64,000 nucleotides of DNA from Eggerthella sinensis (GTDB lineage: Bacteria; Actinomycetota; Coriobacteriia; Coriobacteriales; Eggerthellaceae): contig NZ_PPTT01000006.1 in assembly GCF_003339815.1 (NCBI RefSeq), positions 62,001-126,000 on the forward strand, written 5' to 3'. Below, piece after piece: positions 8,188-63,166 of the stretch. Both the position numbers and the translations under genes were made by a program. The notes under the pieces are model-generated. The model saw only the letters and a program-made list of their open reading frames with translations, was not told the origin of the DNA and did not search any database. Positions within the stretch are counted from its first letter, which is position 1, and each line of letters begins with the position of its first letter.

Positions 8188-8507
8188 GGTGCGTCCTTTC
8201 GGAACACCGCTTCCGAGGCATCGCGCGCCTCGGGGCGGGGGCTAGGTTTCAGCCGAAAAGTGTACCATGAGCTGCGCGGCCCGATCGAGGAAGTTGCCGT
8301 ATCGCCACAGGAACGGCGGTTGCGCGCCACCTTTGCGCGACCCCCTTCGGGCGCTCCGTCGGGTGCGGCTGCGAGCGGAAGCCGGAGGCGCTGTCCGGGC
8401 AGTCGTGGTGGTTGCGCGCTTGCCGTGCATTCGCCCTTGCGCGGATGTCGCTTTCAGGGTACCATCGGCAAGGTTTACGGGCGTTCCGGCCGCTTGCGCG
8501 GTTCCCG
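8188..8507. other. non-coding region between ATP-grasp gene and SAM riboswitch
   Basis: About 320 bases separate the divergent ATP-grasp gene and the metK leader. I see no plausible gene. The stretch must hold the minus-strand promoter of the ATP-grasp operon and the plus-strand promoter for the metK leader, but no hexamer pair stands out; tacCAT near 8460 is a weak -10 candidate for the leader. Confidence 0.4.
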
Positions 8508-8603
8508 TTTTATCAAGAGTCGGGGGAGAGAGTTGGCTCGATGATCCCGACACCAACCTGGCTGTATATGCCAAGGTGGTCCGGCCTACACCGATGAAGG
8601 AGG
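8508..8603 (+). promoter_or_regulatory. SAM riboswitch of the SAM-I/SAM-IV superfamily
   Basis: The leader of metK has the hallmarks of a SAM aptamer. TTTTATC (8508-8514) can pair with GATGAAG (8593-8599) as P1; ATCAAGAG follows P1 as in SAM-I; TCGGG pairs with CCCGA as P2, with a GAG/GATGA kink-turn-like internal loop; the P2 loop TTGG can pair with CCAA just after P2; and a third stem CCTGGC/GCCAAGG carries the conserved AAGGTG. The 3' strand of P1 runs into the Shine-Dalgarno AAGGAGG (8597-8603), so SAM binding should hide the ribosome site. This would repress synthesis of the enzyme that makes SAM. Confidence 0.75.
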
Positions 8604-34804: not shown

Positions 34805-34879
34805 GGTCGCTTGGCTCAGCGGGAGAGCATCGCCTTCACACGGCGGGGGTCACAGGTTCAAATCCTGTAGCGACCACCA
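34805..34879 (+). tRNA. tRNA-Val (anticodon CAC)
   Basis: Full cloverleaf: acceptor GGTCGCT/AGCGACC, D stem GCTC/GAGC, anticodon stem TCGCC/GGCGG with loop TTCACAC (anticodon CAC, reads GTG), T stem ACAGG/CCTGT, discriminator A and encoded CCA. A terminator follows within 12 bases. Confidence 0.96.
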
Positions 34880-34988: not shown

Positions 34989-35063
34989 GGGCCTATAGCT
35001 CAATGGCGGAGCAGGGGACTCATAATCCCTTGGTTGCAGGTTCGAGCCCTGCTGGGCCCACCA
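34989..35063 (+). tRNA. tRNA with CAT anticodon (elongator Met or lysidine-type Ile)
   Basis: Acceptor GGGCCTA/TGGGCCC, D stem GCTC/GAGC, anticodon stem GGGGA/TCCCT with loop CTCATAA, T stem GCAGG/CCTGC, A73 and encoded CCA. It is not the initiator: position 1-72 is paired and the anticodon stem lacks three G-C pairs next to the loop. Sequence alone does not settle Met versus Ile2 (C34 modified to lysidine); the TTGGTTGCAGGTTCGAG stretch slightly resembles Ile2 tRNAs. Confidence 0.92.
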
Positions 35064-36938: not shown

Positions 36939-37013
36939 TCCTCGGTAGCTCAACGGCAGAGCATCCGGCTGTTAACCGGAGGGTTGTAGGTTCGAATCCT
37001 ACCCGGGGAGCCA
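36939..37013 (+). tRNA. tRNA-Asn (anticodon GTT)
   Basis: Acceptor TCCTCGG/CCGGGGA, D stem GCTC/GAGC, anticodon stem TCCGG/CCGGA with loop CTGTTAA (anticodon GTT), T stem GTAGG/CCTAC, G73 and encoded CCA. Confidence 0.96.
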
Positions 37014-58425: not shown

Positions 58426-59082
58426 ATGGGGGATTTGCTGGTTGCGGCCGGATTGTTCGTCGCGGCGTTTCTTTTGGGGTCCATCCCCTTCGGGCTCATC
58501 ATCTCGAAGGTGTTCTACCACACCGATCTGCGCGAGCACGGCTCGGGCAACATCGGCACCACGAACGCCATCCGCACGATGGGCAAGGTGGGCGGCTATT
58601 CCGTGTTCGTGCTCGACTTCGGCAAAGGCCTGCTGTCGGGCGTGCTGGCCTGGGCGTTCAGCACGTGGTTTTTGCCGGGCGGCGGTTTCGAGCCGGGCGC
58701 GCTCGTCACGTACGACACCATGCTGGCGGTGGCGTTCCTCGGCTGCACGTGGGGCCACATCTTCTGCCCGTGGCTCGGCTTCAAGGGCGGCAAGGGCATC
58801 GCGGTGGCCGTGGGCTGCCTGTTCGTCACGTTCGGCTGGGTGGGCGCCTGCCTCGAGCTGCTCATCTTCATCGTGCTCGTCGTGGTGACGAAGCGCGTGT
58901 CTGTCGGCTCGATCGCGGCGGCTGCGGCCTGTCCGTTCTTCGCGCTGTACTTCTTCTGGGGCGACTGGCTGGCCTGGCTGTTCTGCACCGTCGCGGGCCT
59001 TACCGTCGTGTGGGCCCACCGCGAGAACATCAAGCGCCTGCTGGCCGGCACCGAAAGCAAGATCGGCGACAAGAAGAAGTGA
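58426..59082 (+). CDS. plsY: glycerol-3-phosphate acyltransferase PlsY
   Basis: Encodes 218 residues with about five spans. Signatures: GSIPFGLIISK, REHGSGNIGTTNAIRTMG, and FKGGKGIAVAVG. Transfers acyl from acyl-phosphate to glycerol-3-phosphate. Adjacent to gpsA, which supplies the substrate, so they work together in phospholipid synthesis. Confidence 0.95.
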   Translation: MGDLLVAAGLFVAAFLLGSIPFGLIISKVFYHTDLREHGSGNIGTTNAIRTMGKVGGYSVFVLDFGKGLLSGVLAWAFSTWFLPGGGFEPGALVTYDTMLAVAFLGCTWGHIFCPWLGFKGGKGIAVAVGCLFVTFGWVGACLELLIFIVLVVVTKRVSVGSIAAAAACPFFALYFFWGDWLAWLFCTVAGLTVVWAHRENIKRLLAGTESKIGDKKK

Positions 59083-59126
59083 GGTTCCGCCGGTCTAACG
59101 GCCGGGACGTCGAAAGGAATCCAACC

Positions 59127-60128
59127 ATGAAAATAGCCGTTATCGGGGCGGGGTCGTGGGGGACGGCGCTCGCGCAGGTTGTGGCGGGCAACGGCCATAA
59201 CGTGGGGCTGTGGGCGCGCAAGCCCGAAGTGGTGCGCTCCATCAACGCCGACCACGTGAATCCGCGCTACCTGAGCGAGGTCGGGCTGTCCGAGAACATC
59301 GTGGCCACCACCTCGTACCAGGATGCGCTGCTGCACGCGGAGGCCGCCGTCATCGTCACGCCCTCGAACCTCATGCGCGGCGTGGCCTGCGCGCTCGCCG
59401 ACGTGGTGGACGCCGACTTCCCGGTGATCATCTGCTCGAAGGGCGTCGAAGAGGGCAGCGGCCTCTTGCCCGTGGAGGTGTTCGAGGCCGAGATGGGCAA
59501 CGCGAGCCGTCTGGCCGTGCTCTCGGGCCCGAACTTCGCCGCCGAGGTCATCCGCGGCATCCCGACGGGCACCGTCATCGCAAGCTCCGACGAGGGCACG
59601 GCGACGTTCTTCCAAGAGCTGTTCGCCTCCGAGACGTTTCGCACGTACGTGAGCGACGACGTGTGCGGCGTGGAGCTGTGCGCGGCGTTCAAGAACGTCA
59701 TCGCCATCGCCGTGGGCCTGTCGTACGGCCTCGGGTACGGCGACAACACGGCGGCCATGCTCATGACGCGCGGCCTTGCCGAGATGAGCCGCCTCGTCGT
59801 GCGCTGCGGCGGGCAGGCCCTCACGTGCATGGGCCTTGCCGGCACCGGCGACCTCGTGGCCACGTGCACTTCCGAGCACTCGCGCAACCGCCGGTTCGGC
59901 AAGCTGCTGGCCGAGGGCGGCACGCTCGACGAGTTCACCGCCGAGACGCACATGGTGGCCGAGGGCGCGCTCGCGTGCAAGACGCTGCAGACGCTGGCCG
60001 AGGCCTATCAGGTGGAGCTGCCCATCACCGACGTGGTGCGGGCCATCGCCTGGGAGGGCGCCGACCCGCGCACGGTGGCGCAAACGCTCACGAGCCGACC
60101 GCTCACCACCGAATTCTACGGATTGTAA
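59127..60128 (+). CDS. gpsA: glycerol-3-phosphate dehydrogenase [NAD(P)+]
   Basis: Encodes 333 residues. NAD motif GAGSWGTALA (8-17), SGPNFAAEV, KNVIAIAVG with the catalytic Lys, and SRNRRFG near the C-terminus. Reduces DHAP to glycerol-3-phosphate for PlsY. ATG 59127 follows AAAGGA. Terminator follows the stop. Confidence 0.96.
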   Translation: MKIAVIGAGSWGTALAQVVAGNGHNVGLWARKPEVVRSINADHVNPRYLSEVGLSENIVATTSYQDALLHAEAAVIVTPSNLMRGVACALADVVDADFPVIICSKGVEEGSGLLPVEVFEAEMGNASRLAVLSGPNFAAEVIRGIPTGTVIASSDEGTATFFQELFASETFRTYVSDDVCGVELCAAFKNVIAIAVGLSYGLGYGDNTAAMLMTRGLAEMSRLVVRCGGQALTCMGLAGTGDLVATCTSEHSRNRRFGKLLAEGGTLDEFTAETHMVAEGALACKTLQTLAEAYQVELPITDVVRAIAWEGADPRTVAQTLTSRPLTTEFYGL

Positions 60129-60131
60129 GAG

Positions 60132-60159
60132 ACGGGGCCGCGCATGCGGCCCCGTTTTC
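60132..60159 (+). terminator. terminator of the DUF512-gpsA operon
   Basis: ACGGGGCCGC (60132-60141) / GCGGCCCCGT (60146-60155), loop GCAT, then TTTTCG. Confidence 0.9.
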
Positions 60160-60319
60160 GTCCGCGTCCCGCCCGCCGTGCGCCGTGCGCCGTGCGCGCA
60201 CGTGCTATTCGCGTCTTCGTCATGCTTCAATCCACATGGGGGCAACAAGGCGTTGACCGGGCATTGACCGAACCCCGAATCGCATTGTGCCGGGGGCGCG
60301 GCTGTCGTAAGGTACTACC

Positions 60320-60530
60320 TGTCACCAACGGAGCCCCCTTCTCCGGCGGCGGCGAAGACCTTTTGACAACCTATCCGAGTGCCCGTCGTCTCGTCTCTCG
60401 TGTGAACCCCCCCTCTCTCTCACTCTCTCAAACCTCCGACGGGCCAAGAGCATACGCACCTTCCCCTTCTCCTCTGTGCGTACTGCATTGCCTCCCTTGG
60501 GACCCCCCATCCCAAGGGAGGTTTTATTTT
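60320..60530 (+). ncRNA. candidate C-rich small RNA
   Basis: 575 bases without a gene end in a strong terminator belonging to no coding sequence. Upstream are four stems each exposing pyrimidine: CGGAG/CTCCG with loop CCCCCTT (60329-60345); GCCCGTCG/CGACGGGC (60381-60444) enclosing CCCCCCCTCTCTCTCACTC; TACGCAC/GTGCGTA (60453-60482) with a 16-base all-pyrimidine loop; and the terminator with loop CCCCCCA. Exposed C/CU tracts can pair with GGAGG ribosome sites, as in C-rich sRNAs of Firmicutes. A possible promoter is TTGTGC (60285-60290), 17 bases, TAAGGT (60308-60313). No RNA family is recognised; the 5' end is inferred. Confidence 0.55.
60491..60530 (+). terminator. terminator of the candidate small RNA
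   Basis: Perfect 12-bp stem CCTCCCTTGGGA (60491-60502) / TCCCAAGGGAGG (60510-60521), loop CCCCCCA, then TTTTATTTT. It lies 174 bases before the next gene and 363 after gpsA, whose own terminator is at 60132. Confidence 0.93.
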
Positions 60531-60703
60531 GCCCCCATCCCTCGCTCGCTGCGATCCGCGGTCCCTTCCGGTTTCATGCCGATCGGGGACGGCGGACGAT
60601 CTGCTATGCTGTGTCGAAGCGAAGAGGCGCGAAGGGACGCGGCGCATGCCGACGGCAAGCCCGCATCGCGTCATGGGAGGGAAGGCGTGGAAGGGGAGTG
60701 GCG

Positions 60704-61144
60704 ATGAAGAAGAGGTTCCTGATTGCATCCGTGCTGATCGGCGTGGTGTGCGCGCTGTGCCTGGCAGGCTGCCAGAGCGCGTCGAGCGTGCCGCCGGCGG
60801 GCTCGACGGCCGAGGCGGGCCTGCCCGACTGGGCGGACGAGGACGCGGTCAAAGCCGAGGCGCTCGAGGTCATCGAGGAGTTCGCGGACGGCGACTACGA
60901 CGCCGTCGTGGCCCGGTTCGACAACCCCGAGGTGAAGGCGGCCGACTTCGAACGGGCGGCCGCCACCATCGAGGGCGTCGGGGATTTCAGATTCTACAGC
61001 GACGTCACGTTCGCGCGCTACGAAACCGAGTCCGACGGCACGGCGGCCGTCGTGGCGCAGACCGCGGACTACGTGAACGGAAAGCTCATGTACTCGGTGG
61101 GGATCGCCGAAAGCGGCAAGCTCACGGCGTTCCGCGTCCAGTAG
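60704..61144 (+). CDS. DUF3887-like lipoprotein
   Basis: Encodes 146 residues. Lipoprotein signal peptide with lipobox CLAGC (Cys near 22), then a NTF2-like DUF3887 domain (ALEVIEEFADGDYDAVVARF). A similar domain ends the PadR-operon protein at 27624. ATG 60704 follows AAGGGGAG. Converges on the VanZ-RDD-NnrE gene 24 bases later. Role unknown. Confidence 0.8.
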   Translation: MKKRFLIASVLIGVVCALCLAGCQSASSVPPAGSTAEAGLPDWADEDAVKAEALEVIEEFADGDYDAVVARFDNPEVKAADFERAAATIEGVGDFRFYSDVTFARYETESDGTAAVVAQTADYVNGKLMYSVGIAESGKLTAFRVQ

Positions 61145-61168
61145 CGGTTCGCGTCGGCGCGCCGCCGG

Positions 61169-63166
61169 CTAATCGTCTTCCAGCTCGTCGCCGAGCGCGG
61201 CGAGGTAGGGTTTCGTGTCCACGAGGCGGGCGAGCGTCACCATGCCGGTCCACCGGTTCGTCTCGGTGGCCACGAGCCCCGGCTTGTACGCGAGCATCGT
61301 CACCGTCATGTCGGCGGCGAGGCACGGCCGCGCAGCCGCGCCCGTTTGGGCCGACAGCCCGCTCGGCACGTCGACGGCCACCGTGAAAGGGGCGTCCTTC
61401 GCCCGCATCGGCGCGCTGCGGCGCTCCCCGCGCTCATGGCGGCCGCGCTCGAGCGCGCGCTTGCGGTGCCGGCCGCGGCCCTTCCCGCGCGACCCCTCGA
61501 ACCGGCGGCGGTTCGCCGCGCGAATCCACGCGGCGTAGGGCGGGCGCACCTCGTCGCCCGCGAAGCCCGTGCCCAGGATGGCGTCCACCACGGCCTCGGC
61601 GCCGTCGATGGCGTCGATCAGCACGTCGGCGTCGGGGGCGATGAGCACGCGCAGCGGCAGGTCGCGCTCGGCCGTGTCGGCGAACACGTCGAGGGCGGTC
61701 GAGCGGGCCGGTTCGGCCTTGATGCGCTCGGCCAGGTCGGACGTGATGAGGGTGACGGGGTAGTCCTGCTCGGCCAGCGCGCGGGCGGCCACCCAGCCGT
61801 CCCCGCCGTTGTTGCCCGCGCCGGCCAGCACCACGACGGGCGCCGGATCGGGCACGTGCAGGCGCACCGTGTCGGCCACGGCCGTGCCCGCCCGCTCCAT
61901 GAGCTCGGCCAGCGGGGTTCCGTCGTCGGCGATGAGCCGCTCGAGCGCCGCCACGTCGGCCACGTCGAGCACGCACCGGCGCTCGCGCTCGCGTTCCACG
62001 CCCGCCACCGTCATGATGCGCGTGTTGCTGATCAGCCCGTTCAGCATGACGAAGGGGCGCTTGAGGCGCCACGAGCGCACGGCGCGCACCAGAAGCGAGA
62101 CGCCCCACGCGGCCATGAGCACCACCCACGCCCACACGAGCAGCGTCTGGTTGTGCGCGGCGAAGTTGACGATCGCGCCCATTTCCCCCGAGGTGGAGGG
62201 GTCGAGCCCCACCACGCCCGACAGCGCGGCGAACGGCGCCCAGATCATGAGGTACAGGAGGCCGTAGCGCGCGAGGAACTGGTACCAGTGCGCGCGCGAC
62301 GCGTCGGAGCGCACGATGCGCAGCCGCAGCAGCTTCTGCCCGAGCGTTTGGCCGTGCGTGACGACGGGCACGACGACGAAGCAGAGCAGCAGGACGGCGC
62401 GGTCGGTCCACACGCTGATCGTCTCCTGCCCGGAAAGCCCCGCCGCCGCGAGCCCGAAGCCCACGAGCATGCCGAGGAACCCGGCGATGAGCAGGTCGAG
62501 CAAAAACGACAGCGCGCGCTTCGTCACGCTCGCGCGCATGCCCGCCTCGCGCGCCTCCTCGTTCACGAGGCGGAAGTCGGGCAGCACGCGCATGGCGGGC
62601 CCCACCATCCAGAAGCCCACCATGGCGCCCAGCGTGTTCATCATGAGGTCGTCCACGTCGAACAGGCGGTACGGGTGCTCGTACAGCCCCCATAGGCCGG
62701 TGAGCTGCGTCGTCTCGAACGACAGCGTCACCAGAAAGCCGATGATGAGCGTCTGCCACCACGTGCGGCGGAAGTAGTAGCGCAGGTACATGCCCAGCGG
62801 CACGAGCAGCAGCACGTTGAAGAACGCCTCGTAGACGTAGGGGTCGCGCAGGGTGGCCAGCCAGGTGGACGGGTTGCTCGGCGAGAACGAGGTCTCGGCC
62901 AGGAACTCGTGCACGAAGTTGAACGGCACGAGCTGCGGCGTCTGCGCGTAGGGCACGATGGCCGTGCGATCCTCCGGCAGCGGCAGCAGCACGAGGAAGT
63001 AGGCGCACAGCAGGTAGAACACGAACGAGTACACCACGAGCGTGCGCAGCCACGGGATGGACCCGAACTTGCGGTACTGGTAGACCATGTAGGGGATGGT
63101 GATGACGAAGGCGATGAGGGGGAAGGACAGCGCGGCCATCACGATGTTGGAGACGTAGACGTTCAT
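61169..63166 (-). CDS. VanZ-RDD membrane protein fused to NAD(P)H-hydrate epimerase
   Basis: Encodes 665 residues. Residues 1-~185 are a VanZ-like membrane domain (LVVLLPLPEDRT-like FLVLLPLPEDRT, FFNVLLLVPLG, SFETTQL); ~209-355 an RDD-type membrane domain (RALSFLLDLLIAGF, GQTLGQKLLRLRIV); ~390-665 a YjeF_N epimerase (LAELMERAGTAVADTV, LAGAGNNGGDGWVAARALA, AVDVPSGLSAQTG), which repairs damaged NADHX. A basic 35-residue insert (~550-590, Arg/Lys/Gly-rich) interrupts the epimerase. The YjeF_C dehydratase is missing. ATG 63166 has AAAGG ~12 bases upstream. The DNA reads through all three domains in one frame. Confidence 0.85.
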   Translation of the reverse strand: MNVYVSNIVMAALSFPLIAFVITIPYMVYQYRKFGSIPWLRTLVVYSFVFYLLCAYFLVLLPLPEDRTAIVPYAQTPQLVPFNFVHEFLAETSFSPSNPSTWLATLRDPYVYEAFFNVLLLVPLGMYLRYYFRRTWWQTLIIGFLVTLSFETTQLTGLWGLYEHPYRLFDVDDLMMNTLGAMVGFWMVGPAMRVLPDFRLVNEEAREAGMRASVTKRALSFLLDLLIAGFLGMLVGFGLAAAGLSGQETISVWTDRAVLLLCFVVVPVVTHGQTLGQKLLRLRIVRSDASRAHWYQFLARYGLLYLMIWAPFAALSGVVGLDPSTSGEMGAIVNFAAHNQTLLVWAWVVLMAAWGVSLLVRAVRSWRLKRPFVMLNGLISNTRIMTVAGVERERERRCVLDVADVAALERLIADDGTPLAELMERAGTAVADTVRLHVPDPAPVVVLAGAGNNGGDGWVAARALAEQDYPVTLITSDLAERIKAEPARSTALDVFADTAERDLPLRVLIAPDADVLIDAIDGAEAVVDAILGTGFAGDEVRPPYAAWIRAANRRRFEGSRGKGRGRHRKRALERGRHERGERRSAPMRAKDAPFTVAVDVPSGLSAQTGAAARPCLAADMTVTMLAYKPGLVATETNRWTGMVTLARLVDTKPYLAALGDELEDD

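Follow-up and report, generated by a model that had tools for sequence, protein, structure and literature searches.

A predicted small RNA gene with C-rich loops, conserved downstream of gpsA in part of the Eggerthellaceae

Described C-rich-loop small RNAs and the locus downstream of gpsA

Several accessible C-rich loops are a feature of the class of small RNAs (sRNAs) to which sX13, LhrC and RsaE belong, and sX13, LhrC and B11, which are of similar anatomy, act by pairing (PMC3771888, PMC4132741, PMC10470900). The sX13 RNA of Xanthomonas has three stems with three C-rich loops, can dispense with Hfq and has targets carrying G-rich motifs near their start codons (PMC3771888). LhrC of Listeria uses three redundant CU-rich sites, including the loop of its terminator, to block the Shine-Dalgarno sequence with no requirement for Hfq (PMC4132741). 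The C-rich loops of the 6C/B11 RNA of Actinobacteria pair with G tracts that precede start codons (PMC10470900, PMC8628891), with a target G tract found in a 5' UTR (PMC10470900).

The stretch of DNA analysed here (the window, 64 kb) comes from the 4.0 Mb, 75-contig genome of Eggerthella sinensis. A sequence-only reading of the window had proposed an independent small RNA gene with four hairpins and repeated C-rich loops at 60285-60530; this interval lies in the gene-free stretch between the gpsA terminator and a small lipoprotein gene (Table 1). Sequence inspection, fold z-scores and a terminator scan agreed with the hairpins, loops and terminator as described, and the stems and loops are kept across 11 genera; three of the four hairpins (H1, H2 and H3) are conserved, while the first, of 5 bp, is absent from relatives.

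Table 1. Features of the gpsA-downstream locus, in window positions
Feature	Position	Strand	Details
gpsA	59127..60128	+	conserved upstream neighbour; tblastn synteny
gpsA's own terminator	60131-60158	+	seen in sequence
11-bp direct repeat	60252..60273	+	GTTGACCGGGC/ATTGACCGAAC; conserved, upstream of promoter
Promoter	60285..60313	+	TTGTGC-17-TAAGGT; aligned with relatives
Predicted sRNA gene	60320..60530	+	predicted transcript ~205-210 nt; promoter and terminator conserved
Non-conserved 5' part of predicted transcript	60320..60363	+	includes hairpin 60329-60345; from alignment, start inferred from -10 box
Genome-specific 5-bp hairpin	60329-60333/60341-60345	+	loop CCCCCTT
Conserved element with three hairpins	60364-60528	+	
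Hairpin H1	60381..60444	+	8-bp stem GCCCGTCG/CGACGGGC (60381-60388/60437-60444); 48-nt loop containing CCCCCCCTCTCTCTC
Hairpin H2	60450..60486	+	arms 60450-60459/60476-60486, 7 bp plus 3 bp past a bulge; 16-nt, wholly pyrimidine loop CTTCCCCTTCTCCTCT, core CCCCUUCUCCU
Hairpin H3, intrinsic terminator	60490..60530	+	stem 60490-60502/60510-60522; loop CCCCCCA, T-tract; terminator scan
Small lipoprotein gene (weak DUF3887)	60704-61144		downstream of sRNA

Like sX13, the predicted RNA has an unstructured 5' region ahead of three stems capped by C-rich loops; unlike sX13, it belongs to a host of an unrelated phylum, is matched by no Rfam Xanthomonas sRNA family, has one loop of 34-57 nt that is rich in CU repeats, and has targets that are candidates only. 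It shares an actinobacterial host and C-rich loops with 6C/B11, which differs in being ~93 nt long with two stem-loops. As in LhrC, there are three C/U-rich loops and the terminator supplies one of them, but LhrC is a multicopy RNA of Firmicutes, and the element is single-copy and gives no sequence or model match to it. More generally, no Rfam family reached its threshold in the sRNA region. The 6C family (RF01066) gave no match there up to E=10 and none in the window's own genome, and membership was rejected on anatomy, with three hairpins and a varying C-run length against 6C's two stem-loops and six conserved cytosines; a 6C-like match in one Gordonibacter genome (L063) proved to be a plain GC-rich hairpin. 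The alphaproteobacterial sRNA ar7 (RF02342) likewise has a C-rich hairpin followed by a terminator and matched weakly, with 29.7 bits against a gathering score of 60. As this is half of the gathering score and none of the 14 homologous loci (0/14) gave a match, membership was rejected and the likeness was taken as convergence. Rfam membership of anti-hemB was also rejected.

On these comparisons the element is best described as a putative new family of a known kind, resembling the C-rich-loop sRNAs and lying outside every sequence family tested; the family is absent from Rfam 15. The C-rich loops had been read as a Firmicute trait, which did not hold, the nearest analogues including actinobacterial 6C/B11 and Xanthomonas sX13, and C-rich multi-loop sRNAs look to have arisen convergently in Xanthomonas, Firmicutes, mycobacteria and here. 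No description of a small RNA in Eggerthella lenta came up in a text search of the open-licence literature. Among the group's members are gut bacteria known for modifying drugs and plant compounds.

Fold, covariation and range of the element

The predicted fold of the region was more stable than that of any of its shuffles, both for 60310-60530 (z-score of -4.5) and for the strand 60370-60530 (-54.6 kcal/mol, z = -6.9), and H3 was the sole terminator detected by the scan within 59000-62000. The loops are G-poor and C/U-rich, with a predicted unpaired probability of 0.74-1.00 (1.00 for the H2 loop), so that the element has several accessible C-rich loops, and of all pure-pyrimidine runs on the window's + strand the two longest (15 and 17 nt) both fall inside it. 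The H1 loop, found in all members and 34-57 nt long among them, opens with a conserved GUCUCYYGYGUGAA, which is not C-rich and holds nearly all of the loop's Gs, and continues with a C-tract of varying length and CU repeats. The H3 loop contains at least CCCC among members. The main candidate seed is the core of the H2 loop, CCCCUUCUCCU, which does not vary among the complete members aligned.

Searching 138 genomes of the family by blastn gave clear homologues, with the conserved block beginning near 60364. In an alignment of 30 members made with MAFFT, and so not fitted to structure (A1), the consensus held 27 pairs in three helices, 19 of them with pair-preserving changes on both sides; 94.8% of cells paired. 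Covariation was 0.374; shuffles gave 0.181, with none of the 500 reaching the observed value, and sliding the pairing partners lowered it to 0.06-0.15. A model-fitted alignment of 40 distinct rows (A2) gave 98.3% of cells paired and a covariation of 0.423. Compensatory changes were seen in 5/7 modelled pairs of H1, in 3 pairs of H2 (where 100% of stem cells were paired) and in 11/11 modelled pairs of H3. The length of the C-tract shifts by 1-2 bases between close relatives, which rules out a conserved reading frame, and a small protein product was rejected on these frame-breaking changes. The element has a conserved secondary structure and no conserved reading frame.

The core at 60364-60528 scored 170.6 bits against covariance model R1. 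A search of 397 genomes of the order with this model returned 38 single-copy matches of 108-171 bits, confined to 11 genera of a single family (Gordonibacter, Adlercreutzia, Paraeggerthella, Enteroscipio and Rubneribacter among the named ones), and the next best matches reached 20.6 bits or less; as members and noise differ by nearly 90 bits, the short calibration of the model is unimportant. A scan of 84,980 species with the H2 loop and its 3' arm gave 34 records, of which 3 were stray and 31 were strong R1 matches, including Adlercreutzia, Gordonibacter, Paraeggerthella, Parvibacter, Enterorhabdus, Enteroscipio, Rubneribacter, Slackia sp. ZJ119 and unnamed Eggerthellaceae. Nearly all homologous loci have gpsA upstream, and these gpsA-downstream regions, which the sequence-only reading had named for a comparative check, carry the conserved stems and C-rich loops. 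In 22 family genomes that have no sRNA, R1 with filters off found nothing downstream of gpsA, and from this range and these empty regions it follows that the sRNA family marks only part of the Eggerthellaceae. These comparative results mark 60364-60528 as the conserved core of a real RNA gene, predicted to be transcribed.

Promoter and upstream direct repeat

The promoter TTGTGC-17-TAAGGT, which the sequence-only reading had put forward, recurs together with the upstream repeat in 7-8 genera. Relatives have TTGNNN-17-TANNNT at the same place, with -10 boxes TACTCT, TAGAGT, TATCTT, TAGTCT and TAATCT, and the TTG was absent from 1/18 loci (L047). With a promoter of its own and an intrinsic terminator, the element is predicted to be an independent sRNA gene. 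A TTGACA at 60363 was considered as an alternative -35 box and rejected, as the aligned members have no suitably spaced -10 box after it. The promoter motif was absent upstream of the sRNA in the members from Adlercreutzia, Parvibacter and genus g23, and these must therefore use a different promoter.

The direct repeat, which in relatives reads GTTGACCGGGG/GTTCACCGAAC, was found in 17 loci (7 genera) when up to 3 mismatches were allowed and in 18 loci (8 genera) with 4, and its distance to the -10 box is constant in all of these loci. It is probably an activator site of OmpR/PhoP type, through which a regulator would control the sRNA promoter. The Streptomyces Pho box is built of two or more direct repeats of GTTCACCC, 9 bp separating the CA pairs (PMC7244524), and the resemblance of the repeat to it is a lead only. 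The strict motif (up to 1 mismatch) occurs once in the window's own genome; looser matches there are mostly inside coding sequence, and a regulon for the repeat was rejected on that ground.

Between this promoter and the sRNA, four Gordonibacter loci and genus g13 carry a small ferritin-like gene (Pfam Rubrerythrin, 3.5e-6), with the sRNA lying soon after its stop codon, so that the RNA in these loci may be made from a 3' UTR. The ferritin-like/rubrerythrin gene upstream of the sRNA concerns loci L033, L036, L038, L039, L042 and L047; the gene is not between promoter and sRNA in another Gordonibacter (L041) nor in Eggerthella, and in the window's own genome a homologue lies at another locus (G000:C13:49950-50252, 55% identity).

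Pairing with ribosome sites and the competing readings

Target analyses used 2.0 Mb of a genome of the same genus (G052, L129-L228) with home-made gene calls (1,608 genes). GGAGG, AGGAG or GAGGA was present within 25 nt of the start in 47% of genes, and a GGGG run lay within 25 nt upstream of the start in 21.6% of genes as against 7.8% of coding controls. Consistent with the proposal that the loops cover Shine-Dalgarno sequences, complements of H2-loop 7-mers were found in 13.7% of ribosome-site regions and 1.2% of coding regions, but composition-shuffled loops matched ribosome sites equally well, so that these data show a capacity for pairing and not targets. No functional class was enriched among the predicted targets, and Tat, FeS, hydrophobic and LuxR genes were not hit beyond the level of shuffled loops. 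Hfq was not found in any of the 11 genomes searched for it (11/11), in a search that included 5 positive controls; the sRNA consequently offers a system for studying Hfq-free pairing, and model R1 and the named seed enable direct tests.

We consider it probable that the element is a trans-acting sRNA which has its own promoter, pairs with Shine-Dalgarno regions and blocks translation, probably without Hfq. An RNA of ~205-210 nt would be transcribed from the promoter downstream of gpsA and ended by the intrinsic terminator; its three conserved hairpins would keep nearly G-free, C/U-rich loops open, and these loops, probably redundant, would base-pair with target mRNAs at their G-rich Shine-Dalgarno regions and keep translation from starting, with repression as the expected outcome and Hfq probably not needed. 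By analogy with sX13, LhrC and B11/6C, the reading with the best support is that the RNA pairs with ribosome sites. The shuffled-loop result also means that bulk Shine-Dalgarno binding leaves the invariance of the H2 loop unexplained, and the same invariance, where pairing statistics require composition only, would suit a protein sponge, an RNA whose loops, rich in pyrimidines and poor in G, take up a protein that binds C/U (Rho, a cold-shock protein or a KH protein) and so alter its free level. The long unpaired C/U tracts are consistent with such a sponge, as is the conserved part of the H1 loop that is not C-rich; we nevertheless regard it as unlikely, given that a pairing sRNA of this form, three hairpins capped by C-rich loops, has been tested (sX13) and that the protein partner would be hypothetical. 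A more specific version seems quite unlikely: in it the RNA would be less an antisense regulator than a means of sequestering a global C/U-binding protein in Actinomycetota that lack Hfq, and a dedicated response regulator acting at the upstream direct repeat would switch it.

The ferritin-like reading frame between promoter and element in the Gordonibacter and g13 loci could instead point to a cis-acting element, namely a 3' UTR belonging to gpsA or to the ferritin-like gene, or else the leader of the lipoprotein gene downstream. Against this, gpsA has its own terminator, many members have the promoter directly before the element, and the element closes with a terminator, which makes a cis-acting role very unlikely; the leader was rejected outright, the lipoprotein gene being missing from many sRNA-bearing members. 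The lipoprotein gene is patchy among relatives and present in two copies in several Gordonibacter loci. Least probable of the readings, in our estimate, is a dedicated antisense regulator of a single target, for example an ABC-2 permease (G000:C16:16817-17590; L235, L315) whose ribosome site in the window's own genome, AAGGAGAAGGGGG, shares 11 bp of complementarity with the invariant H2 loop. The 11-mer AGGAGAAGGGG is found, exact, at the ribosome site of this permease in six genomes of three genera, but the same bases code for KEKGAA at the C-terminus of the upstream ATPase, so that its recurrence is equally explained by the codons of the upstream gene. Among 17 permease orthologues the match varies and tracks the K-E-K/R-G codons at the C-terminus of the ATPase, and other sRNA-bearing members either have no permease or have altered sites, the match being lost in several sRNA-bearing genomes. 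Under the favoured trans-acting reading the ABC-2 permease is kept as a candidate target.

The start of the permease gene overlaps the stop codon of the upstream ATPase. In two genomes of the same genus (L270 and L276) a second permease, FtsX/MacB-like, follows an ATPase; its ribosome site carries this 11-mer too, again overlapping an EEKGE C-terminus. Elsewhere in the window, a SAM riboswitch (RF00162) was found at 8507-8600 (54.2 bits), and tRNA genes lie at 34805-34876, 34989-35060 and 36939-37010.
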